From a virus, in IMG/VR virus record IMGVR_UViG_3300042469_000516, positions 1-35,235 of that record: 35,235 bases of DNA. One strand, 5' to 3'. The position numbers were made by a program, and so were the translations under genes. Shown one piece after another: positions 3,626 through 32,172 of the stretch (within the stretch, counting starts at the first letter, position 1; each line of letters opens with the position of its first letter). The notes under the pieces were generated by a model, which made no database searches, was not told the origin of the DNA, and worked only from the letters and a program-made list of their open reading frames with translations.

Positions 3626-4207
3626 ATGTCGGTTCAAACCGTTAAAATCAGTGAAGTAAAATCGAATCCAAATAACCCTCGATTAATAAAAAACGATAAG
3701 TTTGAAAAGCTTGTCCAGTCATTAAAAGACTTTCCAGAAATGGCAAAGGTTCGTCCGATTGTAGTTAATCAGGACTTTGTTGTTTTAGGGGGTAATATGA
3801 GGCTCAAGGCGATGAAAGAAGCCGGATGGAAAGAAGTACCAATTGAAGTTGTTGATTGGTCTGAGGATAAGCAAAGGGAGTTTATTATTAAGGATAATGT
3901 CGGTTTTGGCGAATGGGAGTCGGATATACTTGCAAATGAATGGGATGCTGATGATTTGGAAAAATGGGGTTTGGATGTGCCTAATTGGTCTGCTGGTTCT
4001 GATCTAAACGGAATGAATGAGGATGATTTGGATTTGAATGAGGAGTTTGATCCCAAAGGACTAGCAAAAGACCTGCATAAGATTGTTTTTATTTTTGATA
4101 ATGAAACAGGCTCTAAAGATTGGATTGAAAAAAACTTTCCAGGGATTGACCTAAAAAAATGCAATGGTATTTATCAAATAAACCTTTCAAGTACGTATGG
4201 AATTTAA
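3626..4207 (+). CDS. ParB/Srx-fold domain protein
   Basis: This 193-residue protein has an N-terminal ParB-like domain (residues 1-120): VKISEVKSNPNNPRLI, KVRPIVVN, then GGNMRLKAMKEAGWKEVP at 55-72, the position of the catalytic or CTP-binding loop. The segment at 80-120 (FIIKDNVGFGEWESDILANE) is typical of phage ParB-like proteins. A small alpha/beta C-terminal region follows an acidic linker (131-142). Such proteins occur near DNA-modification and packaging genes and may be nucleases or NTPases. It overlaps the downstream glycosyltransferase by 11 bases, so the two are coupled. A 16-codon reading frame starting at 3595 precedes it and may be a leader peptide. Confidence 0.85.
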   Translation: MSVQTVKISEVKSNPNNPRLIKNDKFEKLVQSLKDFPEMAKVRPIVVNQDFVVLGGNMRLKAMKEAGWKEVPIEVVDWSEDKQREFIIKDNVGFGEWESDILANEWDADDLEKWGLDVPNWSAGSDLNGMNEDDLDLNEEFDPKGLAKDLHKIVFIFDNETGSKDWIEKNFPGIDLKKCNGIYQINLSSTYGI

Positions 4208-4964
4208 AAATAAATTTCCTGTGTATATTGTTTCAAAAGGTAGGTATGAAAAAACATTTACAGCCGATATTTTTGAAAAGGCTGGTGTCAATTATTTAAT
4301 AGCAGTTGAGCCAAAAGAATCAGAATTGTATATAAAAAAACTTGGACCTGAAAAAGTTTTAGTCTTGCCTTTTTCAAATCTTGGTTTAGGAAGCTTTCCG
4401 GCAAGAAACTATTGCTGGCAACACGCAAAGCAAAATGGATTTCAATACTACTGGTGTTTTGATGATAATATTACCAGATTCCTAAAATGGGTAAATGGTA
4501 AAAGGCAAAAATGGATTGAACTATTAATCGCTTTAAAATATGTTGAAAGCCATGTCCTTAAAAATAATATTGATATTGGAGGATTTGAGGAACAAACATT
4601 TGTTGTAAAACCACCAAATACGCCATTTAAAGAAAACTGCCATGTTTATTCAGCAATGTTAATAAAAACAGCTTTGCCTTATAGGTGGAGGTTAAAATAC
4701 AATGAGGATGTAGATTTATGTTTGCAGGTTCTACATAATGGCGGTACAACCACAAGTTGTGTTTACTACGTTATGGATAAGGTGAGCACGGCAAATAAGA
4801 TGAAAGGAGGCAATCAAGATGAACTTTACAGAGGTAACGACCCCAAAAAGAAACTACTGAAAGCCAAGATGCTAGAGGCTCAATGGCCGCAATACGCTAA
4901 AACAGTAATTCGGTTTAATAGGATTCATCATTTGATTGACTGGAAGCAATTTAAAAGAAAGTAA
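4197..4964 (+). CDS. TET-associated-type glycosyltransferase (TAGT), predicted DNA-base GT
   Basis: This 255-residue GT-A fold enzyme resembles the phage TAGT family. It has PVYIVSKGR at 8-16, IAVEPKE at 35-41, VLVLPF then ARN at 69-71, a CFDDN motif at 87-91 (DxD-like metal or nucleotide-sugar site), NEDVDLCLQVL at 169-179, and a late KMKGGN motif. TAGTs have been predicted to glycosylate hydroxylated or otherwise hypermodified bases in phage DNA. It overlaps the ParB-domain gene and lies just upstream of the terminases, a common place for DNA-modification genes. No base hydroxylase, TET/JBP or hydroxymethyl-nucleotide synthase is visible in the window. The substrate is inferred, not seen. 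Confidence 0.8.
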   Translation: MEFKNKFPVYIVSKGRYEKTFTADIFEKAGVNYLIAVEPKESELYIKKLGPEKVLVLPFSNLGLGSFPARNYCWQHAKQNGFQYYWCFDDNITRFLKWVNGKRQKWIELLIALKYVESHVLKNNIDIGGFEEQTFVVKPPNTPFKENCHVYSAMLIKTALPYRWRLKYNEDVDLCLQVLHNGGTTTSCVYYVMDKVSTANKMKGGNQDELYRGNDPKKKLLKAKMLEAQWPQYAKTVIRFNRIHHLIDWKQFKRK

Positions 4965-9104: not shown

Positions 9105-9157
9105 AATATTCCTTTTGGATAGCGGCACTCAAAAAGAAGAATAAAAATGCAAATTGA
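8343..9157 (+). CDS. Tail-assembly chaperone, predicted -1 frameshift fusion (gpGT-like)
   Basis: Predicted product joins 8343-8873 to 8873-9157 by a -1 shift in the T run, giving about 271 residues. The -1 frame is open from 8858 to a TGA at 9155-9157 (99 sense codons) and contains no ATG, so it can hardly be made independently. Its composition looks strongly protein-like, with FYLDELGKYKSGYSERIRF and YYEYYLKYSFWIAALKKK. Its stop overlaps the tape-measure TTG start as TTGA. This matches the conserved arrangement of lambda G/GT and equivalents in many siphophages, where the fusion recruits the tape measure. A homopolymer read-length error is the main alternative. Confidence 0.75.
8867..8875 (+). 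other. Predicted -1 slippery site (nine T)
   Basis: In the reading frame of the chaperone the codons are ACT TTT TTT TTG. Both T TTT TTT (8867-8873) and T TTT TTG (8870-8876) satisfy the X XXY YYZ rule for simultaneous -1 slippage. No downstream pseudoknot was worked out. Confidence 0.7.
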
Positions 9158-11886
9158 GCACTCTATCGCAAAATAACATTGTAGTCAATTATGTACTCAA
9201 TGATGACCAGGTAAATAAAGCAAAAACAGGGTTTGACAAACTAACCGATTCTGAAAAGAAAGCGGTTGATGAAACCAGAAAGCTAAACGATCAATTAAAA
9301 AAGACTGGTCAGGAAGGGCAAGATTCTGGAAAGAAAACAGAAACCGCACTTTTAAGAGTTACAGGACCAATTCGACAAAATAGTGCTGCTTTATCTGCAT
9401 TTACATCTCAATTAAAAGTAGCCGGGGAAGTTGCTACAACTGCCGCAAATAAAGCCAGTGCAGGTTTTGCAGGTGTTGAAGCTAAACAGAAAGCCGCAGC
9501 AGCCGCAGCAAACGCATTTAGAAATGCCTTAGGATCAATAAGCCCTGAGCCAATAATAAAAGTTAAAGAAGAATCGCAAAATGCTGCTAAGGAGTTAAAT
9601 GGATTCAGTTCAATTGCAAAGTCAGGGGCTGGTTTGTTGGCTGGATTTTTTGCGGTTGGTTCTTTGGTTGCTTTTAAAGACCGATTAGTTGAAACTACAA
9701 TCAAATTTGAAGGCTATTCCAAAGCGATTCAATTTGGGTCCGGAAGTGCTGAAAACTTCGCAAAGAATCAACAATTCCTAAACGACCTTATTAATAAATA
9801 CGGATTAGGGCTTGCATCTACAACTGAGGCCTATAAATCTTTTTTCAATGCTTCCACATTGGCAGGGCAAAGTCAGGCCGAAACCAACAAACAATTTGAA
9901 GCGGTTACAAAAGCTGGAACGGTTTTAAAATTAACTACCGATCAAATGCAAGGTGCTTTTTTAGCATTGGGGCAAATGATGTCAAAAGGTACGGTTCAAG
10001 CTGAAGAACTAAGAGGGCAATTAGGCGAAAGAATTCCAGGTGCATTTTCCATAATGGCAAAAGCCTTAAATGTAAATGAAAGGCAATTGAATAAGATGTT
10101 GGAACAAGGTCAGGTTCTTTCCAGAGATGCTTTGCCAAAGTTTGCGGCTGAACTTGAAAAGACCTTTGGAAAAGATGCTGAAAAGAATTTGAATGGTATG
10201 GTGAATAGCCAAAACCGATTCAATAATTCAATAGATCAACTTGTTTTAGCCATTGGAACAAAGTTACAACCGTTTTTACAAGGTGCTTACGATTTAGCGG
10301 CTGGAATTGCAACTCAATTGGCTGGAATTGGTCAGGCTGCTAAAAAAGAAACAACCGAAAACATAGCCCTTAAAAAAGCTGAATCCGATATTGCCAAAAA
10401 GATTTTAGACGTATCTATTCAGCAGGGAGTTCAAATTGACAGGCGAAGGGCCGCAAGTGAATTGCTTATAGAAATTGACGCAAAAATATTTAATCAGTTA
10501 AGTAAAAATGCAGATTTCAGGATTGCAAAAGATGAATTAGGATTAAAAAAGGGCTTAGAAAAACTTGCCATACTTGAAAAAGAAGAAATTATTTTAACTC
10601 AAATTGCAGGTGTAGAGATTAAAAATTTAAAAGCAAAAGAGCCATTAACCGATGCTGAACTAAAAGCATTAAAAGCCCAATATGATGCCAGACTTGGACT
10701 TCTTGCCCTTGAAAAACAGGAAAGGGAGTTAAGGGGTAAATTAGCAAATGATCCAAATGCTGAATTGACTGCTGAGTTAAAATTCCTTGAAGATAAATTA
10801 GCCCTACAAGAACAATTTGCGGCCAAAGGCGTAAAGATTTCACAAACAGAAATAACTATTACCAAAGAGCAACAACAAATTGCTAAAAAAGATTATGAAG
10901 CTGCTTTAATGCAGAACTACAAAGACACTACCGATAATGAGGACGCAAAGGAAAAGGCCAGAAAAGCTGCAATGGATAAGACTTTGGAAATGACAAAAGA
11001 CTATGCCAAATTTAGTAAAGATATTTCTGATAAAAGCACACAGGACGAAATTGATAATATTGAAAAGACCGCAAGAATAAGAAGGGACGCTGAAGAAGCT
11101 AGGGCAAAGTATGAAAAGAAAAAAGCTGATGAAAAAAATGATATAATTCAAGCATCATTTGACCTTGCAGTAACAACAACAAACGGGCTTTTTAACCTAC
11201 AATCGCAATACGCTGCAAACGATATGGAGAGGAAGCAAAAGCAATTTGATCAAGAAATTAAACTGGCAGATGGTAACCAACAAAAAATAGATGAAATTAA
11301 TCAAAAAAGAACTGCGGCTGAAAAGGAATATAGGGAAAAGGAATTTAGGGCAAATCAGGCGCAAGCTGTGGCAAATGTAATTTTTCAAACTGCGGCAATA
11401 GTTGCAAAATGGGCAAGTAATCCAGTGACAGCACCATTGGCAGCATTGACACTTGGTGTACAAGCGGCTCAAATAGGTATTATTATGGCCCAACCAGTTC
11501 CGGAATTTGCCGAAGGAACCAAAGGAAAAGCTTTTAAAGGAAAAGCGATAGTTGGTGAAAAGGGAACTGAATTAGTAACGACCCTTTCAGGAAAGCAATA
11601 TTACACACCTCCGACAGCTACACTGGCCCAATTTGATGAACCAGTACACATTACTCCAAATCACTTACTTGGATTAAATGACAAGTATCTGAGTAGCCAA
11701 TATTTCAATGCTTCCAGTAAAACCGATTCAAGCGGTATGCAGATAGTAACTGAATTAGGGGAAATCAAAAGGGAATTAAGGTCATTGCCAGTTGCTGCAA
11801 TTTCCCTGGATGAAAAAGGATTTATGAAAAAGGTAAGAACGCCAAACCGATCAACTACAATTTTAAATAACAGATTTAAAAATTAG
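9154..11886 (+). CDS. Tail tape measure protein
   Basis: This 910-residue protein is helical and Ala/Lys/Gln-rich, with coiled-coil stretches at ~15-60 and ~600-740. Residues ~180-345 carry a conserved tape-measure domain, including EELRGQLGERIPGA at about 284-297. Hydrophobic segments occur near 158-174 and 745-785 (ASNPVTAPLAALTLGVQAAQ). The start is TTG at 9154: an in-frame stop lies at 9142 and the next in-frame Met is about 260 codons later. TTG overlaps the stop of the shifted chaperone. The protein sets tail length and is ejected with DNA; 910 residues at the usual ~0.15 nm per residue would predict a tail of roughly 130 nm. Confidence 0.93.
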   Translation: MSTLSQNNIVVNYVLNDDQVNKAKTGFDKLTDSEKKAVDETRKLNDQLKKTGQEGQDSGKKTETALLRVTGPIRQNSAALSAFTSQLKVAGEVATTAANKASAGFAGVEAKQKAAAAAANAFRNALGSISPEPIIKVKEESQNAAKELNGFSSIAKSGAGLLAGFFAVGSLVAFKDRLVETTIKFEGYSKAIQFGSGSAENFAKNQQFLNDLINKYGLGLASTTEAYKSFFNASTLAGQSQAETNKQFEAVTKAGTVLKLTTDQMQGAFLALGQMMSKGTVQAEELRGQLGERIPGAFSIMAKALNVNERQLNKMLEQGQVLSRDALPKFAAELEKTFGKDAEKNLNGMVNSQNRFNNSIDQLVLAIGTKLQPFLQGAYDLAAGIATQLAGIGQAAKKETTENIALKKAESDIAKKILDVSIQQGVQIDRRRAASELLIEIDAKIFNQLSKNADFRIAKDELGLKKGLEKLAILEKEEIILTQIAGVEIKNLKAKEPLTDAELKALKAQYDARLGLLALEKQERELRGKLANDPNAELTAELKFLEDKLALQEQFAAKGVKISQTEITITKEQQQIAKKDYEAALMQNYKDTTDNEDAKEKARKAAMDKTLEMTKDYAKFSKDISDKSTQDEIDNIEKTARIRRDAEEARAKYEKKKADEKNDIIQASFDLAVTTTNGLFNLQSQYAANDMERKQKQFDQEIKLADGNQQKIDEINQKRTAAEKEYREKEFRANQAQAVANVIFQTAAIVAKWASNPVTAPLAALTLGVQAAQIGIIMAQPVPEFAEGTKGKAFKGKAIVGEKGTELVTTLSGKQYYTPPTATLAQFDEPVHITPNHLLGLNDKYLSSQYFNASSKTDSSGMQIVTELGEIKRELRSLPVAAISLDEKGFMKKVRTPNRSTTILNNRFKN

Positions 11887-12435: not shown

Positions 12436-14679
12436 ATGGCAGGTTGGAAATTCTTTATAAACAATATTCAGGTCAATGAGCCTATTGGATGGGATGCAAT
12501 AGAATTCACTGCCATACGACTTGAATCGCATGGAATAGATCAACCCTTTTCAACTGAGATAAGTTTTTCTGGAAAACCTGGCAGATACGCCAATGGTGCG
12601 AAAATCCTAAAAGAGTATTTTGATAATGGATTTATAAATGATGAAATTCCATTTCAGATAACCAGTAACCAAAAGATAGATGGTTCAACTTATGACTTTC
12701 AAGGGATTATTAACATGGCCCTGTACTCCGAGCAAAACACTTGCGATACACAAGGCTGGCAGATAACCGTTGGAATAATTGAAAATAATTTTCAGGAAAT
12801 TTTTAAATCTAGGTCAGATGTAGATATTGACTTAACTACAAATACTGATTTAGATGGAAATGCCATTGATCCATTAACTGAAAAACAGATTAGATTACAC
12901 AGGCAAGATTTATACTTACAAGCAAATGGGAAAAACCTTGCAGATAGTTCAACCCACTTATACAATGGCCCATTAGGCGCAATTGCTCAAAGATTTGCAG
13001 TAGTTCCTACCTATTGGCAACAAAATGATTTTAAGGACAATTATGGTTCGGTTTTCAACACAAATGCAATCTTTGTAACAAGGGCAAATTGGGAAACAAC
13101 GCCAATACTTAAAAATAATGGATCGGTAACCAGAACATGGAATTATGAGGTAAAAATTGAATTTGAATTAAGAAATAATACAAGCAATAACATACAAGTT
13201 GAATTATACTTTTTAAGATTAGATGGTAATGTTCCAACCACTCTTATACCAAGTTTATATACAATCACTCTTACTTCTTTGCAAGTTGTTAATGTAAATC
13301 AAACCTTTACAGGGTCTTTTACCGTTGAAACCGGCAGGACAATTTCATTATTCTTTGGGCAAAATACTTTTAATACTGCAAGCGTTCCAGTTACTGTCAA
13401 TATTGAAAAAGGCTATACAATAAACTTAAATGAGGTTAATAGTGGCGAATTTGCATCAACTGCCAATTGTTTAACAATTGAGCAATGGTTAAGAAGGGCT
13501 ATTTATATAATAACCGGAAGTAACAATAAATTACTTTCAGATACTTTTTCCGAATCAGGTGATGGATGTTATTGGAACAGCGCTTTGACCAATGGATTAA
13601 GGTTAAGGCAGGCAGATGGTACAAATAATCTAGGGGCTTTAAAAACAAGCTGGCAAAAAGTTTTTGAGGACTTAAATAGAATCTTTTGTTTAGGATGGGG
13701 CTTTGAATGGACAGGAACTGAATGGAAAATTAGAGTTGAAAAATTAGAATATTTTTATCAAACTAATATTATTCAAACATTCAATAAAGTAAGTAATATT
13801 ACCCAAACAGCAAGTGTTGATCTTATTAAAAATTCCATTATATTAGGGTTTACTGAAACTTGGAAAAATATTCAACTAGCTGGTGTTTTTGCAACTCATA
13901 CAGATAGAAATTACTTTGTTGCTAATCGGGCCATGTCCCAAAATTCAACCGATAAATTAGATTTAAGGTCAGGAATAATTGGCGAAGGCTATGCCATTGA
14001 ATTTAGTAGAAGGCTTTCTGGAATAACCTTTGGCGGTGCTTCTTCAGATCGACCAAATGATTATGAAACATTTATAATTTGGCTAAACAGAAGCGAGCTT
14101 ACAATTAATCCAGTTGAAAATTCAAGATACAATTTACCGCAGGAATCTGGATCAGTTACATTTGATCCTGGAGAAATCAGTTGGAATTCCGATTACATAA
14201 CTTATAGCAGTTTGCCTTTTGGCGGCCTTTATAATATTTTCCACACACCTGCAAGAATTGCATTTAGGTGGTGGAAGTATTTAGGAATGAATACTTTTGG
14301 CCTTGCAAATCCAATGCTAAGATTTCAAGTAGGGCAATATCAGACAAATTATATTAGTAACATAGCATCTGCATTTTTAAGCGTTCCAACAGAGCCATGT
14401 AGGGAAATTGATGGGGTTTTAGACGAAAATATAAATATAGATCCTCAACTAATGATCTATGACAAAAAATTCTACCTTTTTAAACCAATTGAATTAGAGT
14501 TTAGTGTACCTCAAAACCTTTGTTCGTTTATTTCAATGGCAAACAATGGCTTTTTGCAAAACGCTACAAATAAACCAGTGGATCCAAAATCAGGAATTAG
14601 TAATTTTAAATTACTTTTGGCAAATAATGTGCCTTATGTAGCTGGATTCTCAGAAGGGTTTTCAGATGGATTTGGTTAA
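12436..14679 (+). CDS. Large tail/baseplate structural protein with FSxGF C-terminus
   Basis: This 747-residue protein opens a tail operon after the tape measure, where distal-tail and tail-hub proteins are normally encoded. The N-terminus (MAGWKFFINNIQVNEPIGWD) and following IEFTAIRLESHGIDQPFSTE resemble a tail-hub type beta domain. Residues ~210-340 look like an inserted beta-sandwich (VELYFLRLDGNVPTTLIPSL). The extreme C-terminus is AGFSEGFSDGFG, nearly repeated in the frameshifted extension of the capsid gene. No lytic motif was seen. The role in baseplate or tail tip is inferred from gene order. Confidence 0.7.
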   Translation: MAGWKFFINNIQVNEPIGWDAIEFTAIRLESHGIDQPFSTEISFSGKPGRYANGAKILKEYFDNGFINDEIPFQITSNQKIDGSTYDFQGIINMALYSEQNTCDTQGWQITVGIIENNFQEIFKSRSDVDIDLTTNTDLDGNAIDPLTEKQIRLHRQDLYLQANGKNLADSSTHLYNGPLGAIAQRFAVVPTYWQQNDFKDNYGSVFNTNAIFVTRANWETTPILKNNGSVTRTWNYEVKIEFELRNNTSNNIQVELYFLRLDGNVPTTLIPSLYTITLTSLQVVNVNQTFTGSFTVETGRTISLFFGQNTFNTASVPVTVNIEKGYTINLNEVNSGEFASTANCLTIEQWLRRAIYIITGSNNKLLSDTFSESGDGCYWNSALTNGLRLRQADGTNNLGALKTSWQKVFEDLNRIFCLGWGFEWTGTEWKIRVEKLEYFYQTNIIQTFNKVSNITQTASVDLIKNSIILGFTETWKNIQLAGVFATHTDRNYFVANRAMSQNSTDKLDLRSGIIGEGYAIEFSRRLSGITFGGASSDRPNDYETFIIWLNRSELTINPVENSRYNLPQESGSVTFDPGEISWNSDYITYSSLPFGGLYNIFHTPARIAFRWWKYLGMNTFGLANPMLRFQVGQYQTNYISNIASAFLSVPTEPCREIDGVLDENINIDPQLMIYDKKFYLFKPIELEFSVPQNLCSFISMANNGFLQNATNKPVDPKSGISNFKLLLANNVPYVAGFSEGFSDGFG

Positions 14680-14704: not shown

Positions 14705-15547
14705 ATGGCAAATACCAGAGCGCAAAACGCTACATTAATAACAACAAACATTCCTGACAATAACGAAAAGTTAGTTACTCCTTCAAAGGTTCGGGAAGTT
14801 GAAAATGCTTTAAATGATTCAGGCGTAAATATCAATGGCGATACTTTTGCGGAAGATGCAGTTTTTGAGTTTAACAACGGCTCAAAGTTAAGGGAAGGGG
14901 TTATTCAGCATGGTTTTGGCGGTGGCATTGCTCGAGTTTGTGCAAATGACAAAACAGACCAATGGGAGGATGGAGTTAGATATTTGACTTCAACAACTGG
15001 TTCAACTAATACTGTTATTTATGTAGAAAACATGAACGGAACTAATCCTGGCAGCACTGATGACGTTACTCAATCTTATGCAATTGGCTCAAGATGGAAA
15101 AATCTGGTTAGTGGGGTTGAATACATTTGTACAGATGATACGGAGGATGGTGCTGTTTGGGTTCCACTTTCTGGAAGTTATGAACCAGTTGCAGCAGATT
15201 TGGTGGAATTTAGTGAATTAATTATACAAGATGCAACATTTTCAACTACAGGTAATATTGTAAATTTACATGGTAGATTAAGACCCTCTACAAGTGGCGC
15301 ACCAACAGGCACTATGAGTGCAAACTTTCCACTTCCAACTGGCTTACGTGCAAAATTGAGCAGCCAGGCTGTAATTACAACGGTACCTTTAAATCTTTTT
15401 TCAGCGGCAGATATTACTGCAGCTGCGATTGCTACATCGGAAGTAGATGCAAACTGTTTTATCAGTTTTACAATTGGAGCAAGTCCAGCAGCATTAGGAA
15501 GTGACAGTATTATATTTCATTTACAATATGAAACTGATTTTCTTTAA
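14705..15547 (+). CDS. Tail fibre or tail-tip protein
   Basis: This 280-residue protein has an N-terminal segment TTNIPDNNEKLVTPSKVREV typical of fibre or baseplate attachment regions in Bacteroidota phages. A Gly/Ser/Thr-rich middle resembles collagen-free fibre shaft sequence (NMNGTNPGSTDDVTQSYAIG, RWKNLVSGVEYICTDDTEDG). A C-terminal beta-sandwich follows (~165-280). The middle resembles small receptor-binding or capping modules that follow fibres. The partial protein at the right window edge has a similar C-terminal style. Host-recognition role is inferred. Confidence 0.6.
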   Translation: MANTRAQNATLITTNIPDNNEKLVTPSKVREVENALNDSGVNINGDTFAEDAVFEFNNGSKLREGVIQHGFGGGIARVCANDKTDQWEDGVRYLTSTTGSTNTVIYVENMNGTNPGSTDDVTQSYAIGSRWKNLVSGVEYICTDDTEDGAVWVPLSGSYEPVAADLVEFSELIIQDATFSTTGNIVNLHGRLRPSTSGAPTGTMSANFPLPTGLRAKLSSQAVITTVPLNLFSAADITAAAIATSEVDANCFISFTIGASPAALGSDSIIFHLQYETDFL

Positions 15548-15558
15548 AATCAAACTCA

Positions 15559-16752
15559 ATGAAAAACCTATTATTACTTTTTAGCCTAATCCTGATTTCA
15601 ATGTCAGGATGCAGGCAAGACCAAAAAACAGAATTGGAAGAAACCAAAGATTCGGTTCAATTTGTTTTTAATGAAAATGACTATTTGATTCCTGACTCTT
15701 TAGATTTGGTTACAAAGCCAAACAGATTCGGAAGGGCTGCGGTGGTTGATATTAGTAAGAAAGTTGCAAGGGTTATGTATGTGGTTGAATACGACCTTTA
15801 TTTGCAGCTTGGAAGCGATTTGCAAAGGTGTAGTACATTTGTAATTGACAACCATAATAAGGCAATGAAACCCTTTGCCGCTGGCACAATTTACACAAAG
15901 ATAACCAAGATAGTAATTAACACAGTTCCAACGGTTTATACACCAATTACCAATAGTGCGCAAATGCTGGTAAGCTTTACAAACAATACTGTAAATGAAC
16001 CAAATATTGATGTGAAAGGGTTATTGGTTGCTAAAATATTTGGTGGAATTGCTTGGATAGGTGGAATTAATAGTTCTACTTCAAATTGCTTTGTCGCAGG
16101 TCTTTACCCTTATTCAAATGATTATAACCCCTACAATACATCTCATGAAATAGGGCATGTTTACGGTTCAATTCATACTCACGATTGTTGGCGGTTTTTA
16201 AATGGTTGGAGGCGATTAGATTCTTGTGCCACTGGATGCGGTCAGACCAATACAAAATTTACCTATAATGGAACTGTTATGAGTTATTGCAACAACAGGG
16301 GGACAATTAAAATGCCCCTTGAATTTCATCCGCTTTGCATGGACACAATGAAAAAGCTTTTAGCCAAAAATAGTTCTATTCCGACTGAGGGAAGTCCTGA
16401 ACCGCCAACCATTACAAGAACAATTGAATATTCTGGCACAACTCATTCGGGAATTCCGAACAACTCAACCGATGGTAATTTAACAACCAGATATTTGACA
16501 ACCGGACCTTTCAGAGTTCAATTTACTTATTCCGCACCTGTTACAATTACAAATGTGTTTTTAAATTCAGGTTTTCAAGGTGGCAGTCCAAACCAAACTT
16601 TAACATTAAAAGTTGATGGAGTAAATGTTTTGTTAAACTTTACGCCAATGATTAATTTTTCCAGGGCAATTAATGTTACTGGAAAAGTCTTTGAATTGAC
16701 AACAACAGGAACGGGGAATATTAGCAGGGTTTTTGAAATCGGAGTAAAATAA
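15559..16752 (+). CDS. Secreted metzincin metalloprotease lipoprotein
   Basis: This 397-residue protein has an N-terminal lipoprotein signal peptide (LILISMSGC, lipidated Cys18). An extended zinc site HEIGHVYGSIH follows at 196-206, matching HExxHxxGxxH of metzincins (reprolysin-like, M12B type), followed by HD. A Met-turn VMSYC sits at 240-244, at the expected distance. Eight or more cysteines around the active site could form disulfides. The C-terminal ~110 residues (after 285) look like a discoidin-like carbohydrate-binding beta-sandwich. Proteases of this type with signal peptides are uncommon in tail operons. It starts 11 bases after the fibre gene and ends just before a large tail gene, so it is expressed with virion genes. 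It may process virion or host surface proteins. Confidence 0.85.
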   Translation: MKNLLLLFSLILISMSGCRQDQKTELEETKDSVQFVFNENDYLIPDSLDLVTKPNRFGRAAVVDISKKVARVMYVVEYDLYLQLGSDLQRCSTFVIDNHNKAMKPFAAGTIYTKITKIVINTVPTVYTPITNSAQMLVSFTNNTVNEPNIDVKGLLVAKIFGGIAWIGGINSSTSNCFVAGLYPYSNDYNPYNTSHEIGHVYGSIHTHDCWRFLNGWRRLDSCATGCGQTNTKFTYNGTVMSYCNNRGTIKMPLEFHPLCMDTMKKLLAKNSSIPTEGSPEPPTITRTIEYSGTTHSGIPNNSTDGNLTTRYLTTGPFRVQFTYSAPVTITNVFLNSGFQGGSPNQTLTLKVDGVNVLLNFTPMINFSRAINVTGKVFELTTTGTGNISRVFEIGVK

Positions 16753-19763: not shown

Positions 19764-21563
19764 ATGATAGAAGTAATTCAGGGTTTATCCAATTTATTGA
19801 ACAATTCTAAGTATAGGAATGGTCAATCGGAATTTGCAATTGAAATCAGGGAAAAGGCAAAACACCTTAGACCTCATTTTGAAAACAAATACCCTGAATT
19901 CCTTTTACAATATCAACATCCAGGGGAAGAGTTATGGATGAAACAACACAGGGCGAATAACTGGCAAAGCCCTACAATTGCAGCTACTGGTCGGGTTCAA
20001 ACAAGCTGCCAAAAGATTCAACAATCTGATGACTTTTCAATTAAATGGAACGAATCGGAAACGGAAACTGGAATCATTAAGGAAAATGGACTTGAAAAAT
20101 ATTGCAAAGAGGATCTGCCAAAGTTTAAAAACCTAGAGGATTGGACCTTTTCAATTTACCTTAAACAACTTTTTGAAGATGCTAATTCTGTTTTTGTTGT
20201 TTTGCCTGATTTGTCAGATTTTATTGAGAATCAAACTCCATTAGATTTTACAAAACCATATCCGCAATTATTTGAATCTGATGATATTATTTATCACAAA
20301 TCGGATGCACTAATTGTCAAATTGGATGACATGAAAAAAGATGGTTCTAAATGGAATCGGTTTTTATCTGTTACAATGTCTGGAATTGTTTTATCGGTTC
20401 AATACATGGCCTACCAAGATGATATTGACGCATTTAAACATTATCCGGTTGCTTATGCTTTCCAAGATTTTCCAGTTACAAAAACAGGGCTAAAAATTGA
20501 CGAAATAGAAAATGGGGCATTGATTTACGATTCGTTTCTTGCGCCTTGCCTAACCTCTTGGAATAAGGCTTTAATGCGATCTGATGACCTAGAGGCGAAT
20601 TGGGTAATGCATGCAAACCCTCAGAGATGGAGAATTAAATCCGATGAATGCAAGACCTGCAAAGGACGTGGAACGGTTACCGTTAGAAAAACAAACGAAC
20701 TAACTCAATGTGATTCCTGCATGGGAACCGGTACAGGTTCTGAAGGTAGTTCATTCAATGAGATTTCAATTTCATTACCAAAGACAAGCGTAACCAGTCC
20801 AAATGCGCCTCAGATACCTTTTCCTCCAGCAGGGTACATTAAAAGAGATGATGAGGCAATCAAAAACCTAAAATTAGAAGTAAACGACAAAATCTTTGAA
20901 GGATTTCAGGCAATTGGTCTTGAATTGCTTTCAATAGTTCCAACGGCTCAATCTGGAATTGCAAAACAATATGACCGCAAGGAAATAAATACTTTCTTTT
21001 ATCAGGTTGCAATCATGATTCAGTACGGTTATACGCATACTGCCAAACTGATCTACAACTTAAGATATGCAACTACCATTGACTCTTTGGGAGGTATAAG
21101 CGAAGAAAAAAGACTTGCCTCATTACCAGTTGTTACCATTCCATCTGACTTTGATATTCTGACAATGGAAATGTTAGCTGCTAATTTATCGGTTGCTAAA
21201 AAGGACAATTACGACCCTATTATAGTTTTCGGTATTGAAAGACAATACACTGAAAAGCTTTTTGGCGAAGATTCTGACGAAGTTAAATTAATGTATGTTG
21301 TTAAAAATGTTGATCCTTTGTACGGGCAAACAATGGATCAAAAGATTTTAGCCAAAGATTCAGGCGGTTGCAGTGCAATTGATTTTACGCTTTCTTGCCA
21401 GATTTCAGGCTTTGCAAATCAACTTATTGAACAAAATCCAGACTGGCTTAATAAAAAACTACCAGACCAAAGAACTGATTTGGTTAAAATGGCAACTGAA
21501 AAGCAAGCTGAGATAAACAAGTCAATTATTCCGATTACGACTGATGTCAGGGCTTTCGCTTAA
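19764..21563 (+). CDS. Portal protein with DnaJ-like zinc-ribbon insertion
   Basis: This 599-residue protein shows portal-like features: an N-terminal region with YPEFLLQYQHPGEELWMKQH, a central alpha/beta region, and QSGIAKQYDRKEINTFFYQV at about 396-415, the SGxAxxY motif of portal proteins. It starts the head module (portal, then scaffold, then capsid). Unusually, residues 296-325 contain CKTCKGRG and CDSCMGTG, two CxxCxGxG motifs as in the DnaJ zinc domain, likely binding one zinc. Portal rings form the unique capsid vertex for DNA entry and exit. The portal call is by motif and order, not search. Confidence 0.75.
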   Translation: MIEVIQGLSNLLNNSKYRNGQSEFAIEIREKAKHLRPHFENKYPEFLLQYQHPGEELWMKQHRANNWQSPTIAATGRVQTSCQKIQQSDDFSIKWNESETETGIIKENGLEKYCKEDLPKFKNLEDWTFSIYLKQLFEDANSVFVVLPDLSDFIENQTPLDFTKPYPQLFESDDIIYHKSDALIVKLDDMKKDGSKWNRFLSVTMSGIVLSVQYMAYQDDIDAFKHYPVAYAFQDFPVTKTGLKIDEIENGALIYDSFLAPCLTSWNKALMRSDDLEANWVMHANPQRWRIKSDECKTCKGRGTVTVRKTNELTQCDSCMGTGTGSEGSSFNEISISLPKTSVTSPNAPQIPFPPAGYIKRDDEAIKNLKLEVNDKIFEGFQAIGLELLSIVPTAQSGIAKQYDRKEINTFFYQVAIMIQYGYTHTAKLIYNLRYATTIDSLGGISEEKRLASLPVVTIPSDFDILTMEMLAANLSVAKKDNYDPIIVFGIERQYTEKLFGEDSDEVKLMYVVKNVDPLYGQTMDQKILAKDSGGCSAIDFTLSCQISGFANQLIEQNPDWLNKKLPDQRTDLVKMATEKQAEINKSIIPITTDVRAFA

Positions 21564-21623: not shown

Positions 21624-22286
21624 ATGGTTTTGCCATTCGACAAAATATATTTTATAAGCCTAAACAAATCAAGCGGCCTGAAAAGGCGAAAGTTACTGAT
21701 TGATCAATTTGATAAGCTGGAAATAGTTGATAGAAATGGAACTAAACCAGAGTGGATAATTGCAGATTCTGGAGTTTTTGTAAATCATGAAATTGATAAT
21801 AACTACCGAAAAAAGAACCTAAGACGTGGGGCCGTTTCCATTTCGGAAGTTGGTTGTTTTTCAAGTCATAGAAAGGTCTGGCATAAGTTTTTGGAATCTG
21901 GTTTAGAAAACTGTTTAATCCTTGAGGACGATGCTTTATTTTCTGATTTATCAATTTTTGAGGCCTGGGATAAAATGCCAGATTGGGATTTTGTAAACTT
22001 TGGTTTTATAAGGAATAAGGCCTCAATTCAGGACTCCATTGAAATAGTAAAAAACGAAAACTTTCATGGTCTTTGGTCAGGCTCAGGAATGTGGCTTACC
22101 CATGCTTATTGCATAAACCAAAAAGCCTGTAAAATCCTTTTGGAAGAAACCAAAACGCAAACAGGCGGATTAGATTGGCAATTGACAGGCGTACAATCAA
22201 AGTTTAAAACTTACGGTTTTATGCCTGGTAAAATTAATCAGCAACCCTTAAAAATTGCACCAACACAAATTCATCATACATCTTAA
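21624..22286 (+). CDS. Glycosyltransferase family 25 (LPS-type)
   Basis: This 220-residue protein matches GT25. It has IYFISLNKSSGLKRRKLLID at 8-27, SISEVGCFSSHRKVWHKFLE near 72-91, and LILEDDA at 98-104, with the EDD nucleotide-sugar/metal motif. A late LDWQL follows. Family members transfer galactose or related sugars, often in lipopolysaccharide or glycan synthesis. It is the only non-structural gene between portal and scaffold and has its own promoter and inverted repeat, which marks it as a moron. It could alter host surface sugars or decorate virion proteins. The acceptor is unknown. Confidence 0.85.
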   Translation: MVLPFDKIYFISLNKSSGLKRRKLLIDQFDKLEIVDRNGTKPEWIIADSGVFVNHEIDNNYRKKNLRRGAVSISEVGCFSSHRKVWHKFLESGLENCLILEDDALFSDLSIFEAWDKMPDWDFVNFGFIRNKASIQDSIEIVKNENFHGLWSGSGMWLTHAYCINQKACKILLEETKTQTGGLDWQLTGVQSKFKTYGFMPGKINQQPLKIAPTQIHHTS

Positions 22287-23670: not shown

Positions 23671-24819
23671 ATGTCAGTAAATTTAGCCTATGTTCAGGCG
23701 GCCTTACTTATTTTGGCCTCTGATGATGGCATAACAAATGCTTTGTCTGCAAGGACAAACACAGGAATTTTAGGTGCTTTATTAACACCTGAAAATAGAT
23801 CATACGCACAGCAATTAAGGCTTGCAAATGATAATGGAACAGGACATATTAGAGAGGTACGGGTTGCTACTAAGCAGCGTTTAACCCTTGCAGATAATCC
23901 TGATCTTGAAATGGATGGTTGCGAGTTTGGCGATGAAATGCCATACTTGGAAGAAACCGTAACAATCACACAACAAGCTGCGGCAGGTTTTACAATTTCT
24001 GAGGCTCAGATCAGACTTTATCCTGACTTGGTTACAAGGTTGCAAAACATTACTGGGACCAATATCCCTGCTCAAATGGTAATGATTGGTCGTAACCTTC
24101 CAGAAGGTCGTCAAATTATTCAGGCAATACGAGAAATCACTTTAAATTTCTCTTTGTCTTACGATTCACTAATCCAAAAAATGAATGTTATTCTATTGAA
24201 CGACTTCGTTTCTAAGGTTGGTGATTGGAAAGGCGGAACCGCTTCAAAAACATACACCGTTCAAACTGCTGCTGCTTATGCAAGTGGAAATGGAACGGTA
24301 GATGCTGGTGAGTTGTTCCGATGGAAGCAAGACCTTCGACAGCAAATGTTGATGGGAACGCCTCACACCATTTCTGGCTTTGGTGCTTTGGATAGAATTG
24401 TAGCGCAAAACGCTGAATACTTTGGACAAGGTGCTAATGGTGTTGATTACGGTTCTTTGGTTGCAAACGCAAATCAAATCAGTCGTTATTTCGTAGATCA
24501 GAATATTGCTGATGTTTTGGGATCCGAAAATGATGCTTTGATCTTTATGCCTGGTTCTGCCAATTTCCTTCCATACTTACAATATGTTGGTTCATTTGGT
24601 AAGATTGGTGTAATGGATAGATTCACAATGCCAATTCCAACAGCTCCCGGGCTTGAGGTAGATGTTAAAATCTTGCCAGTTGAATGTGATGAAATTTACC
24701 AGGTTAAATTCGGTCTTCACTTTGAACTTTACATTCCTGAAATGGAGTTGTTCAAGTCAAGCGATTATTTGAGCGGTGTAAATGGAACATTCCAAGCGGT
24801 TTTCAATCAGGCCAGTTAG
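23671..24819 (+). CDS. Major capsid protein, unshifted product
   Basis: This 382-residue protein is encoded after the scaffold and before a strong terminator. It has the composition of a capsid protein, starting MSVNLAYVQAALLILASDDG with core stretches such as DALIFMPGSANFLPYLQYVG and EVDVKILPVECDEIYQVKFG near the C-terminus. I assign it as the major capsid protein by position, length and style; no search was possible. The stop TAG at 24817-24819 is preceded by a G GTT TTC heptamer five codons earlier. Confidence 0.8.
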   Translation: MSVNLAYVQAALLILASDDGITNALSARTNTGILGALLTPENRSYAQQLRLANDNGTGHIREVRVATKQRLTLADNPDLEMDGCEFGDEMPYLEETVTITQQAAAGFTISEAQIRLYPDLVTRLQNITGTNIPAQMVMIGRNLPEGRQIIQAIREITLNFSLSYDSLIQKMNVILLNDFVSKVGDWKGGTASKTYTVQTAAAYASGNGTVDAGELFRWKQDLRQQMLMGTPHTISGFGALDRIVAQNAEYFGQGANGVDYGSLVANANQISRYFVDQNIADVLGSENDALIFMPGSANFLPYLQYVGSFGKIGVMDRFTMPIPTAPGLEVDVKILPVECDEIYQVKFGLHFELYIPEMELFKSSDYLSGVNGTFQAVFNQAS

Positions 24820-24860
24820 GAAACGCCTTTTCCGATGGTTTTTCGGATGGATTCAGCTAA
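23671..24860 (+). CDS. Major capsid protein, predicted -1 frameshift extended form
   Basis: A -1 shift at G GTT TTC (24798-24804) would replace the final NQAS with QSGQLGNAFSDGFSDGFS, giving 396 residues and ending at TAA 24858-24860. The extension frame has no ATG of its own. The encoded repeat FSDGFSDGFS is almost the C-terminus of the 747-residue tail protein (FSEGFSDGFG), which argues it is real coding sequence and not chance. The same arrangement exists in T7 gene 10, where a -1 shift near the capsid gene end yields a minor extended capsid protein; I recall its slippery site as the same heptamer. A recent one-base indel is the alternative. Confidence 0.6.
24798..24804 (+). other. Candidate -1 slippery heptamer GGTTTTC in capsid gene
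   Basis: In frame the codons are GCG GTT TTC AAT CAG GCC AGT TAG. After -1 slippage the A-site Phe tRNA pairs with TTT, while the P-site Val tRNA is less well matched. A stable hairpin (24874-24903) lies 70 bases downstream. Confidence 0.55.
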
Positions 24861-24873
24861 TTGGCCTTAAAAG

Positions 24874-24903
24874 AAAAAGCCCTGACAAAATCGGGGCTTT
24901 TTT
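24874..24903. terminator. Intrinsic terminator after capsid gene
   Basis: AAAAAGCCC pairs with GGGCTTTTTT around a ~12-base loop, followed by T residues. It separates the late plus-strand head genes from convergent minus-strand early genes and is A-rich on both sides, so it may work both ways. Confidence 0.85.
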
Positions 24904-24930
24904 CATTATCTGTACACCAAAAATTAACAA

Positions 24931-25296
24931 TTACAAATCTTTCAAAAGTTCTGGATTTTCATAGATGTTGCCATGTACTATGTAGTGATTGCAATCCTTT
25001 TTTAACAATTGATTCCAATCCATAGATTCATACTCATCATTTATATGTTTAGACTCCCAATATGTATAACAACAAAAATTGCTATTCCATTTTACAACTC
25101 CAGCAGGATCATCTTCAAATGAAACAACATCCCCTTCAAAAATTTCCTTTCCGTTTTTGTCTTTTAGGCCAGTAAATTGTCGAACATATCTTAATGGCAA
25201 AAGGCCAAAGTTTGGGATTTCAAGTAAGTTCCAAACTTTTTTTACTATTTCATTTTTGCTGTCAAAACCGAATTCAAACTTTAATTCTCTATTCAT
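24931..25296 (-). CDS. YopX family protein
   Basis: This 121-residue protein has the YopX signature RQFTGLKDKNGKEIFEGDVV at about 39-58, preceded by a variable N-terminus and followed by a VVKW strand and a C-terminal GNIYENPELL. The family is small, phage-associated and of unknown function. It is the last gene of a minus-strand early operon. Confidence 0.9.
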   Translation of the reverse strand: MNRELKFEFGFDSKNEIVKKVWNLLEIPNFGLLPLRYVRQFTGLKDKNGKEIFEGDVVSFEDDPAGVVKWNSNFCCYTYWESKHINDEYESMDWNQLLKKDCNHYIVHGNIYENPELLKDL

Positions 25297-30806: not shown

Positions 30807-31525
30807 TGAAAGTTAATTTAGGAGAATTTGAATTTGAAGTAAAAGGAGATAAGCAATTTTGGCCTAATATTCAAAACTGGGAACCCGAAACCTTTGAAAT
30901 CGTAAAACAATATGCTGACCCAAAAAAGGCATTTATTGACATTGGGGCTTGGAATGGAGTTGTTTCGCTTTATGCCTCTGGTTTGTTTAAAGAGGTTATT
31001 GCAATTGAGCCTGATGTAATCGCTTTTGATAAACTGTTTAAAAATGTCAAGGCCAATAAGTTAAAAAATGTTTTTTGTAGAAATGTAGCAATTTCAAATA
31101 CAAATGGCAGTTCAATTTTAAACCTTTCATTGGCGGGGGATTCAATGTCAAGTTTATTACCAAGAGATACGGAACAATTTCCAACGGTTGATTTTCAAGG
31201 CGTAGAAACAAAGACTTTTGAAACCTTGATTTCTACTTTTGATATTGAAATTGGATTGATAAAAATGGATATTGAGGGCGGGGAAGTTTTGGTTATTCCC
31301 AATATGATCAATTTTTTAAAACAGCATAAAACCCCGATTTACATTTCATTTCATCCTTTTTGGTTTGATCAGGAAATTAAAGGGCATTCAATTTTGTGGC
31401 TGGCATTGGCATTATTTGAAATTTACTCAGTGGTTCGTGATGCTCAATTAAACCAAGTCAATATGGATGAATTTATTGAAGGCATGAACGCAAATTCATT
31501 TTCCTACATATTTGATACAAAATGA
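30806..31525 (+). CDS. FkbM family methyltransferase
   Basis: This 239-residue protein has FkbM hallmarks: FIDIGAWNGVVSLYA at 43-57, EVIAIEPD at 63-70, and LIKMDIEGGE at 151-160. FkbM enzymes O-methylate sugars or polyketides and are frequent in glycan clusters. It overlaps upstream by TAATG and downstream by ATGA, so it is tightly coupled in the operon. It is likely to methylate a sugar made or added by its neighbours. Confidence 0.9.
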   Translation: MKVNLGEFEFEVKGDKQFWPNIQNWEPETFEIVKQYADPKKAFIDIGAWNGVVSLYASGLFKEVIAIEPDVIAFDKLFKNVKANKLKNVFCRNVAISNTNGSSILNLSLAGDSMSSLLPRDTEQFPTVDFQGVETKTFETLISTFDIEIGLIKMDIEGGEVLVIPNMINFLKQHKTPIYISFHPFWFDQEIKGHSILWLALALFEIYSVVRDAQLNQVNMDEFIEGMNANSFSYIFDTK

Positions 31526-32172
31526 AAACAGGGCTTTTAATAACGGCCTACAATCGGCCAGAATACTTAAAACAATGCCTTGAATCAGTTTCTAAGATTG
31601 GTTACTTTGGAGAGTTGGTAATACTGATTATTGACGATTGCAGCCAGTCAAAAGAAACCATTCAATTAATAAAAGCCTTTCAATTTTCAGATGCGGAGGT
31701 CAATAAAATGTATCTGACAAAAAACCAAGGAATTAAAAACGCTTTGCAAATTGGATTTAATTATCTATTTTCAAAAAATTGTGATTTGGTTTTTAACCTC
31801 GATGGCGATGCAATTGTAAAGCCTCAATTCTTAAAAGTTTTAACTGATTTAAAACAGGCTTACCCTTTTCACATTGTTTCTGGTTTTAATACACAAACGA
31901 TTGATTTAAAAACCAAAAAATTAAGGCATAGAACTTTAAACGCATTTTCAGACCATTGCATAAAAGAATCAATCGGAGGTATTAATATGGTAATTAATAA
32001 AAATGACTATTTAAAAAAGGTTTTGCCATCATTAAAAAGACCAGGTCATTGGGATTGGAACGTTTGCGCCTTGGTCAAAGAATTTGTTGTTTCAACTCCT
32101 TCAGTAGTTCAACACATTGGAATTGAAAAAGGGACCAACTTAAATAATCCTGACATAGCTTTTGACTTTTAA
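31522..32172 (+). CDS. Glycosyltransferase family 2-like
   Basis: This 216-residue GT-A enzyme has LLITAYNRPEYLKQCLESVS at 5-24, ILIIDDCSQS at 34-43, and VFNLDGDAIVKPQF at 90-103, with the DGD (94-96) nucleotide-sugar site. A late HWDWNVCALV follows. It is compact, without a membrane anchor. It is coupled by ATGA to the FkbM gene and followed closely by a GT-B-like gene. It is predicted to add one sugar to a glycan or protein acceptor. Confidence 0.88.
   Translation: MKTGLLITAYNRPEYLKQCLESVSKIGYFGELVILIIDDCSQSKETIQLIKAFQFSDAEVNKMYLTKNQGIKNALQIGFNYLFSKNCDLVFNLDGDAIVKPQFLKVLTDLKQAYPFHIVSGFNTQTIDLKTKKLRHRTLNAFSDHCIKESIGGINMVINKNDYLKKVLPSLKRPGHWDWNVCALVKEFVVSTPSVVQHIGIEKGTNLNNPDIAFDF

Follow-up and report, generated by a model that had tools for sequence, protein, structure and literature searches.

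Does the major capsid gene of this virus always end at its stop codon, or do some ribosomes slip back one base just before it and make a longer protein? The window, the whole stretch of DNA analyzed here, is a 35,235-base virus record, and the original prediction placed a T7 gene 10-style -1 shift at the end of its capsid gene. The following features of the window bear on this question; L numbers denote the viral loci with which it was compared.

23671-24819, plus strand: major capsid protein, 0-frame product of 382 amino acids (aa), stop TAG at 24817-24819, predicted HK97 fold

24798-24804, plus strand: putative slip site G GTT TTC at Val377-Phe378, in frame and in the X_XXY_YYZ phase, read directly

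24804-24860, plus strand: -1 frame extension QSGQLGNAFSDGFSDGFS, stop TAA at 24858-24860, with counterparts in L005, L006, L009, L011, L020, and L226

24809-24819, plus strand: 5' arm of a predicted stem, starting about 4 to 5 nt past the slip site and holding the 0-frame stop

24857-24867, plus strand: 3' arm of that stem, pairing with 24809-24819 and holding the -1 frame stop

24873-24904, plus strand: intrinsic terminator AAAAAGCCCTGACAAAATCGGGGCTTTTTT, read directly, distinct from the frameshift stem; the same element is present in L005 and L006

Sequence searches with the open reading frame (ORF) at 23671-24819 returned zero matches in PHROGs, Pfam, and the PDB, and no relatives were found among host genomes or cultured phages. 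Its structure was predicted with AlphaFold2. An alignment of 41 sequences of relatives gave a model with a pLDDT of 73 and a pTM of 0.74, compared to a pLDDT of only 28 with a 4-sequence input. The best Foldseek matches of this model were HK97-fold capsid proteins (E 3.6e-9 in the PDB and 3.3e-11 in BFVD), and HK97-fold capsids occupied the top of both structure libraries throughout, with TM-scores of 0.3 to 0.6 and probabilities of 0.99 to 1.00. The window also holds a terminase gene and a tape measure gene (9154-11886; PF20155, E 3.1e-28), which indicates a tailed phage with this ORF as its major capsid protein. Judged by the predicted structure, the ORF is an HK97-fold major capsid protein. 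Among the other genes, glycosyltransferase-like sequences were seen at 21624-22286 (GT25, immediately upstream of the head genes), 31522-32172 (GT2), and 4197-4964 (a relative of phrog_842, glucosyl-HMC-glucosyltransferase). A 599-aa protein encoded at 19764-21563, in the structural region, matched the DnaJ-type zinc finger (PF00684) weakly, scoring below the cut-off.

Read directly, the capsid ORF ends GCG GTT TTC AAT CAG GCC AGT TAG, so that the heptamer G GTT TTC lies in frame near the capsid stop at 24798-24804, just as had been claimed. After a slip, the -1 reading continues CAA TCA ... AGC TAA, and the predicted extension of 18 residues closed by TAA at 24858-24860 was recovered as described. 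The short product has 382 aa and ends NQAS; the long product would have 396 aa and end ...AVF-QSGQLGNAFSDGFSDGFS. In the proposed mechanism, tRNA-Phe, together with tRNA-Val in the window, would re-pair one base back at G GTT TTC, aided by the RNA stem 4 to 5 nt downstream. A minority of capsid chains would thereby gain QSGQLGNAFSDGFSDGFS in place of NQAS, giving the trans-frame peptide ...AVFQSGQLGNAFSDGFSDGFS alongside the short-form end ...AVFNQAS. Taken alone, this arrangement could be a coincidence, that is, a common heptamer beside an open frame with no frameshifting at all. The window contains 11 copies of GGTTTTC, and 8.9 would be expected; since it is not over-represented, the heptamer by itself is no evidence. 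A frame that stays open for at least 17 codons and closes within 28 is found at 14% of positions; given both frequencies, heptamer and open frame alone are weak evidence. A repeat of the extension's kind ahead of a stop is rare, present at 0.03% of positions across these genomes, even with the real sites counted in. The slip and extension region, including its base count, was the same across six close-relative assemblies. The sole change was GGA to GGC, which is synonymous in the -1 frame.

Relatives of the capsid were collected by two scans of viral contigs, which yielded 59 and 61 overlapping loci. Five near-identical loci (L001 to L004 and L007) came from neighboring IMG samples and were counted as one lineage. 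Relatives that carry an extension are 39 to 82% identical to the window capsid, and the window and these relatives have an NNT-TTY slip in the form of GTT TTC, ACT TTT, AGT TTT, or CTT TTT. L005 (82%) and L006 (80%) both read GCG ACT TTT A in the slip region, with the -1 continuations FYSGFIDQNDYNPFDYNPLDYN and FYARLLDSRDYNSTDYNPLDYS, respectively. L009, L011, and L020 (about 40 to 44%) carry AGT TTT, CTT TTT, and AGT TTT and continue in the -1 frame as FYLSPGFIGAYADGYSDGYS, FYLSPGFIGAYSDGYSDGYS, and FYLNPDVTGAYSDGYSDGYA. The relatives' extensions end in a short aromatic repeat, for example, AYSDGYSDGYS, AFSDGYTDGFA, or DYNPFDYNPLDYN. The last residues are FSDGFSDGFS in the window, DYNPFDYNPLDYN in L005, DYNSTDYNPLDYS in L006, YADGYSDGYS in L009, YSDGYSDGYS in L011, YSDGYSDGYA in L020, and FSDGYTDGFA in L226. 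Every one of the 7 rows with an extension has a T at the third position of the codon preceding Phe, compared to 3 of the 28 rows without one. In about 50 capsid relatives that lack the extension, a terminator follows immediately after the stop. Aligning the homologues had been proposed as a check on whether heptamer and extension are both conserved. The extension is indeed kept in the relatives at 39 to 82% identity; the heptamer is not. The strong heptamer is found only in the window and T7, and the relatives' sites (U_UUU) re-pair well at one tRNA only, so the efficiency of the shift there may be low. By the refutation criterion given with the original prediction, loss of the heptamer would count against frameshifting, yet the claim stands because both the extension and a weaker slip at the Phe codon persist in the relatives.

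The overlapping -1 frame is conserved as a coding sequence across relatives. Over five pairs, substitutions in the extension fell 15, 12, and 33 times at positions 1, 2, and 3 of the -1 frame, and synonymous changes were most frequent when the extension was read in that frame. We also scanned 2.9 million viral contigs with the motif by itself (two copies of F/Y-x-D-G followed by F/Y-x and a stop codon), which matched 30 stretches with a TAA stop and 7 with TAG. One of the TAG matches, L226, picked up solely through the extension motif, turned out to be a relative of the capsid, 39% identical to the window and 51% to L011. Its capsid gene ends GCG ACT TTT ACT CAG GCG TAA, and the motif lies in the -1 frame, as FYSGVIGTTAFSDGYTDGFA. 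The scan for motifs ended by TGA gave no real case, its matches being low-complexity or chance; a scan with a DYNP motif recovered L005 again, and everything else was chance. When genomes were scanned, one similar case appeared, with the remainder low-complexity or chance: a 138-aa protein ending TRAFSDGFSDGFS on a contig of a Bernardetia MAG (L107:736-768), possibly a prophage virion protein. In the tree of capsid relatives, clades with the extension stand on both sides of the deepest split, which implies that it was lost once or gained twice.

The predicted 11-bp stem (24809-24819 with 24857-24867) encloses nearly the whole extension and an inner hairpin (24831-24835 with 24843-24847). Its spacing agrees with the downstream structure of -1 frameshift cassettes, about 5 to 9 nt past the site. 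The 69 nt past the slip site of the window fold with a minimum free energy of -25.7 kcal/mol (z -4.25), and the corresponding z scores are -4.74 for L001, -3.73 for L005, -4.65 for L006, -6.30 for L009, -7.80 for L011, and -2.99 for L020. In these seven sequences, the predicted stems start about 4 to 7 nt past the Phe codon. As a control, we folded windows of the same genome placed after in-frame Phe codons. Control windows that folded as well numbered 0 of 457 for the window, 5 of 298 for L005, 5 of 325 for L006, 1 of 123 for L009, 1 of 216 for L011, 35 of 479 for L020, and 36 of 124 for L226. By these counts, the stem is strong in five genomes and ordinary in two (L020 and L226). The stems of the window, L005, L006, and L226 differ in sequence and lie in nearly the same register, with 95% of cells paired and changes on both sides at 7 of 10 stem pairs. 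Each 3' arm was picked from its own sequence's fold, so this pairing count leans to structure and is supporting only. A longest-helix test discriminated the window and L005 only, and an Rfam search of 24700-25000 gave nothing near the gathering score.

These results bear on three other accounts of the locus. Coincidence is strongly disfavored already, and we regard it as very improbable: the motif, whose frequency is at most 0.03% of positions, is kept in the -1 frame over several capsid lineages, L226 was recovered by the motif alone, substitutions are biased to the third position, and a strong stem stands beside the site. The extension might instead belong to a separate small protein initiated inside the capsid gene, with no fusion to the capsid. 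The -1 frame is open for 39 codons in the window, and rare start codons could serve; however, the original prediction had already noted that the extension frame has no ATG, an in-frame stop lies shortly upstream in L005 and L006, and the T-ended codon before Phe with a stem right after it fits a shift and not initiation. We consider this account exceedingly unlikely. The same low probability applies to transcriptional slippage, in which polymerase would produce mRNAs with an altered base count at the T run. The site contains TTTT, and TTTTT in L011, but 4 to 5 T make a short run for the polymerase to slip on, and ribosomal shifting accounts better for a stem a few nucleotides past the site. 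A one-base ribosomal slip very probably yields a minority longer form of the capsid protein. The anatomy of the cassette, its retention in distant relatives, and its coding signature are seen in the sequences; the shift itself and its rate we infer from them. The extension frames of distant relatives, the third-position substitutions, and the predicted stem-loop after the slip thus lend support to the proposed -1 shift close to the capsid stop.

We compared the locus directly with T7 gene 10 (NC_001604), which ends GTG GTT TTC AAA GTG GAG TAA. The likeness to T7 extends to the place of the proposed -1 shift, shortly before the capsid gene ends, and to the same in-frame heptamer, G GTT TTC; a review gives the T7 shift site as G_GU... 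(PMC5009743). To this extent the T7 style of the prediction applied, and it failed for the conservation of the heptamer, for kinship of the extension, and for the stimulator. The T7 10B extension is longer than that of the window and unrelated to it. The stimulator described for T7 is a CCCC more than 200 nt downstream (PMC5009743); in contrast, the window has a terminator (24873-24904) about 70 nt from the site and a local stem 4 to 5 nt away. Moreover, the window capsid has no sequence relative among PDB chains and shares with T7 gp10 the general HK97 fold alone. Frameshifted capsid extensions are known from T7, T3, A2, A118, A500, and PSA (PMC5009743). Lactobacillus phage A2 and Listeria phages A118 and A500 (-1) and PSA (+1) resemble the window in that recoding yields a second, C-terminally longer capsid protein (PMC5009743). 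Several of these extensions, such as those of T3 and A2 but not that of T7, are Ig-like domains (PMC5009743). At 18 residues, the window extension is far too short for an Ig-like domain; it is a repeat peptide resembling the C terminus of the phage's own tail hub.

That resemblance, which the original prediction had missed, is the most informative part of the locus. The features involved are as follows.

12436-14679, plus strand: tail hub or tail-tip-like protein of 747 aa (phrog_15220, E 1.4e-32; labeled "virion structural protein" in PHROGs), encoded by the next gene but one after the tape measure gene

14641-14676, plus strand: in-frame C-terminal motif of the hub, AGFSEGFSDGFG, matching the capsid extension NAFSDGFSDGFS, with counterparts in the relatives' hubs

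14705-15547, plus strand: gene after the hub, candidate fiber (phrog_3614 over residues 1 to 43, E 1e-6)

In every genome that has both genes, the capsid extension resembles the in-frame C terminus of its own hub, and the flavor of the two varies jointly. The hub and extension pairs are AGFSEGFSDGFG and NAFSDGFSDGFS in the window, DYFSGDYFTGDYFTGD and DYNPFDYNPLDYN in L005, RAYSGAYSNAYL and GAYSDGYSDGYA in L020, and GAFSTGFSNGFDVF and TAFSDGYTDGFA in L226. The two members are similar and not identical within a genome, and they change together in these four genomes. The hub motif is also kept in relatives without a capsid extension, for example, as GAFDTGFDDGYQIGD. Six-frame scanning of the records of the window and eight relatives turned up such motifs at the hub and capsid ends and otherwise just a few weak matches. 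This likeness suggests that a single docking or sticking tag is displayed by two parts of the virion. Proteins from Polaribacter phages and from one Rhodobacteraceae phage show weak similarity to the hub, and the Polaribacter similarity makes a Bacteroidota phage a plausible source of the window. Two genes past the hub, 15559-16752 encodes a reprolysin-like metallopeptidase (PF13688, E 3.6e-8).

What the putative tag binds can be framed in two ways. It may be a docking peptide for the fiber encoded at 14705-15547, in which case frameshifting would put the same fiber on the capsid. The N-terminal domain of that protein (MANTRAQ..IPDN..VTP), by comparison of N termini, is common to most genes at that place in the relatives; the candidate fiber might dock on the hub motif. 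In L005, where the hub motif has another flavor (DYFTGD), the N terminus of the downstream gene product is divergent as well. This is, however, a single divergent case, and J-like proteins with the motif have other genes after them; we hold docking as a tentative possibility. Alternatively, the tag may act as an adhesin, binding directly to a host or environmental glycan or protein and mediating weak attachment by capsid and tail tip. Most other matches of the motif scan were in-frame C termini of large tail proteins, namely, phrog_15220 proteins (L061, L062, L084, and kin) and phrog_469 J-like proteins (L072, L076, and L082). In L224 (8418-8850, minus strand), a head-closure Hc1 protein (phrog_161) ends in frame in HSGFSDGFSDGFG, so the tag occurs on a connector protein too. 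The motif thus ends virion proteins that are unrelated to each other, the J-like ones with different downstream genes, and its presence on J-like and head-closure proteins leans slightly toward an adhesin. Phage Ig-like domains are similarly spread over virion proteins (PMC5009743). Against an adhesin, the motif differs between phages and binding is putative; we place this reading at somewhat below even chances. The likeness to Ig-like domains is that of a display module: some virion proteins carry it in frame, and in others it is reached by a frameshift (PMC5009743). The module here differs in being a short aromatic/Gly repeat, with close versions on two proteins of one phage.

A second capsid family points in the same direction by another route. 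In L070, an unrelated capsid-like gene (591-1622; phrog_11320, with weaker matches to head-and-packaging families) has TGA as its stop codon, beyond which the frame stays open through TGNGYSDGYGDGYG to a TAA; the peptide behind the in-frame UGA is GNGYSDGYGDGYG. Its relatives L098 and L099 likewise have TGA and then NTSAYDSGYGAGYD, whereas in relatives L092 to L097 the stop is TAA and the peptide is missing. These genomes use TGA as a normal stop codon, which closes 9 of 22 and 4 of 11 of their long ORFs. A search for a tail hub in the L070 capsid family found none. The arrangement in these two lineages suggests, as a lead, that in L070, L098, and L099 UGA readthrough would add a peptide of this type. 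In the RNA phage Q-beta, UGA readthrough in the coat gene gives a minor coat form, the A1 protein. The predicted readthrough in L070, L098, and L099 would likewise give a minor coat form past a UGA, in an unrelated virus and with an unrelated extension.

Together, these experiments in silico make it highly likely that a programmed -1 frameshift puts a hub-like tag on a minority of capsid subunits, with either a fiber or a molecule of the host or surroundings as its ligand. The hub match can be read from the genomes themselves; that the long form would enter virions, and that the tag would have such a ligand, we infer. According to our model, one ligand, either a phage fiber or a molecule carried by the host or present in the surroundings, would bind the tail-tip tag and a few capsid subunits, and frameshifting would hold the number of capsid tags low, leaving assembly undisturbed. 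More broadly, we think it fairly probable that phages use a short C-terminal tag that is present in full on tail-tip proteins and sub-stoichiometrically on the capsid, by -1 frameshifting or UGA readthrough, so that the same ligand-binding peptide stands on head and tail tip at different copy numbers. The tag has an aromatic residue every four or five positions with Gly or Asp between, as in AFSDGFSDGFS, AYSDGYSDGYS, and DYFTGDYFTGD. Frameshifting in capsid genes is already known; a case in which recoding gives the capsid the tag of the tail tip seems to be undescribed, and the string SDGYSDGY had no match in the open-licence literature. The reason why some capsids carry a minority of C-terminally extended subunits is largely unexplained, with T7 10B as the standard example. 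An extension that resembles the phage's own hub turns this into a testable question: what is the ligand of the tag at the tail tip, and does that ligand attach to the capsid too? The short motif may also be used to find recoded capsids that annotation pipelines have missed.
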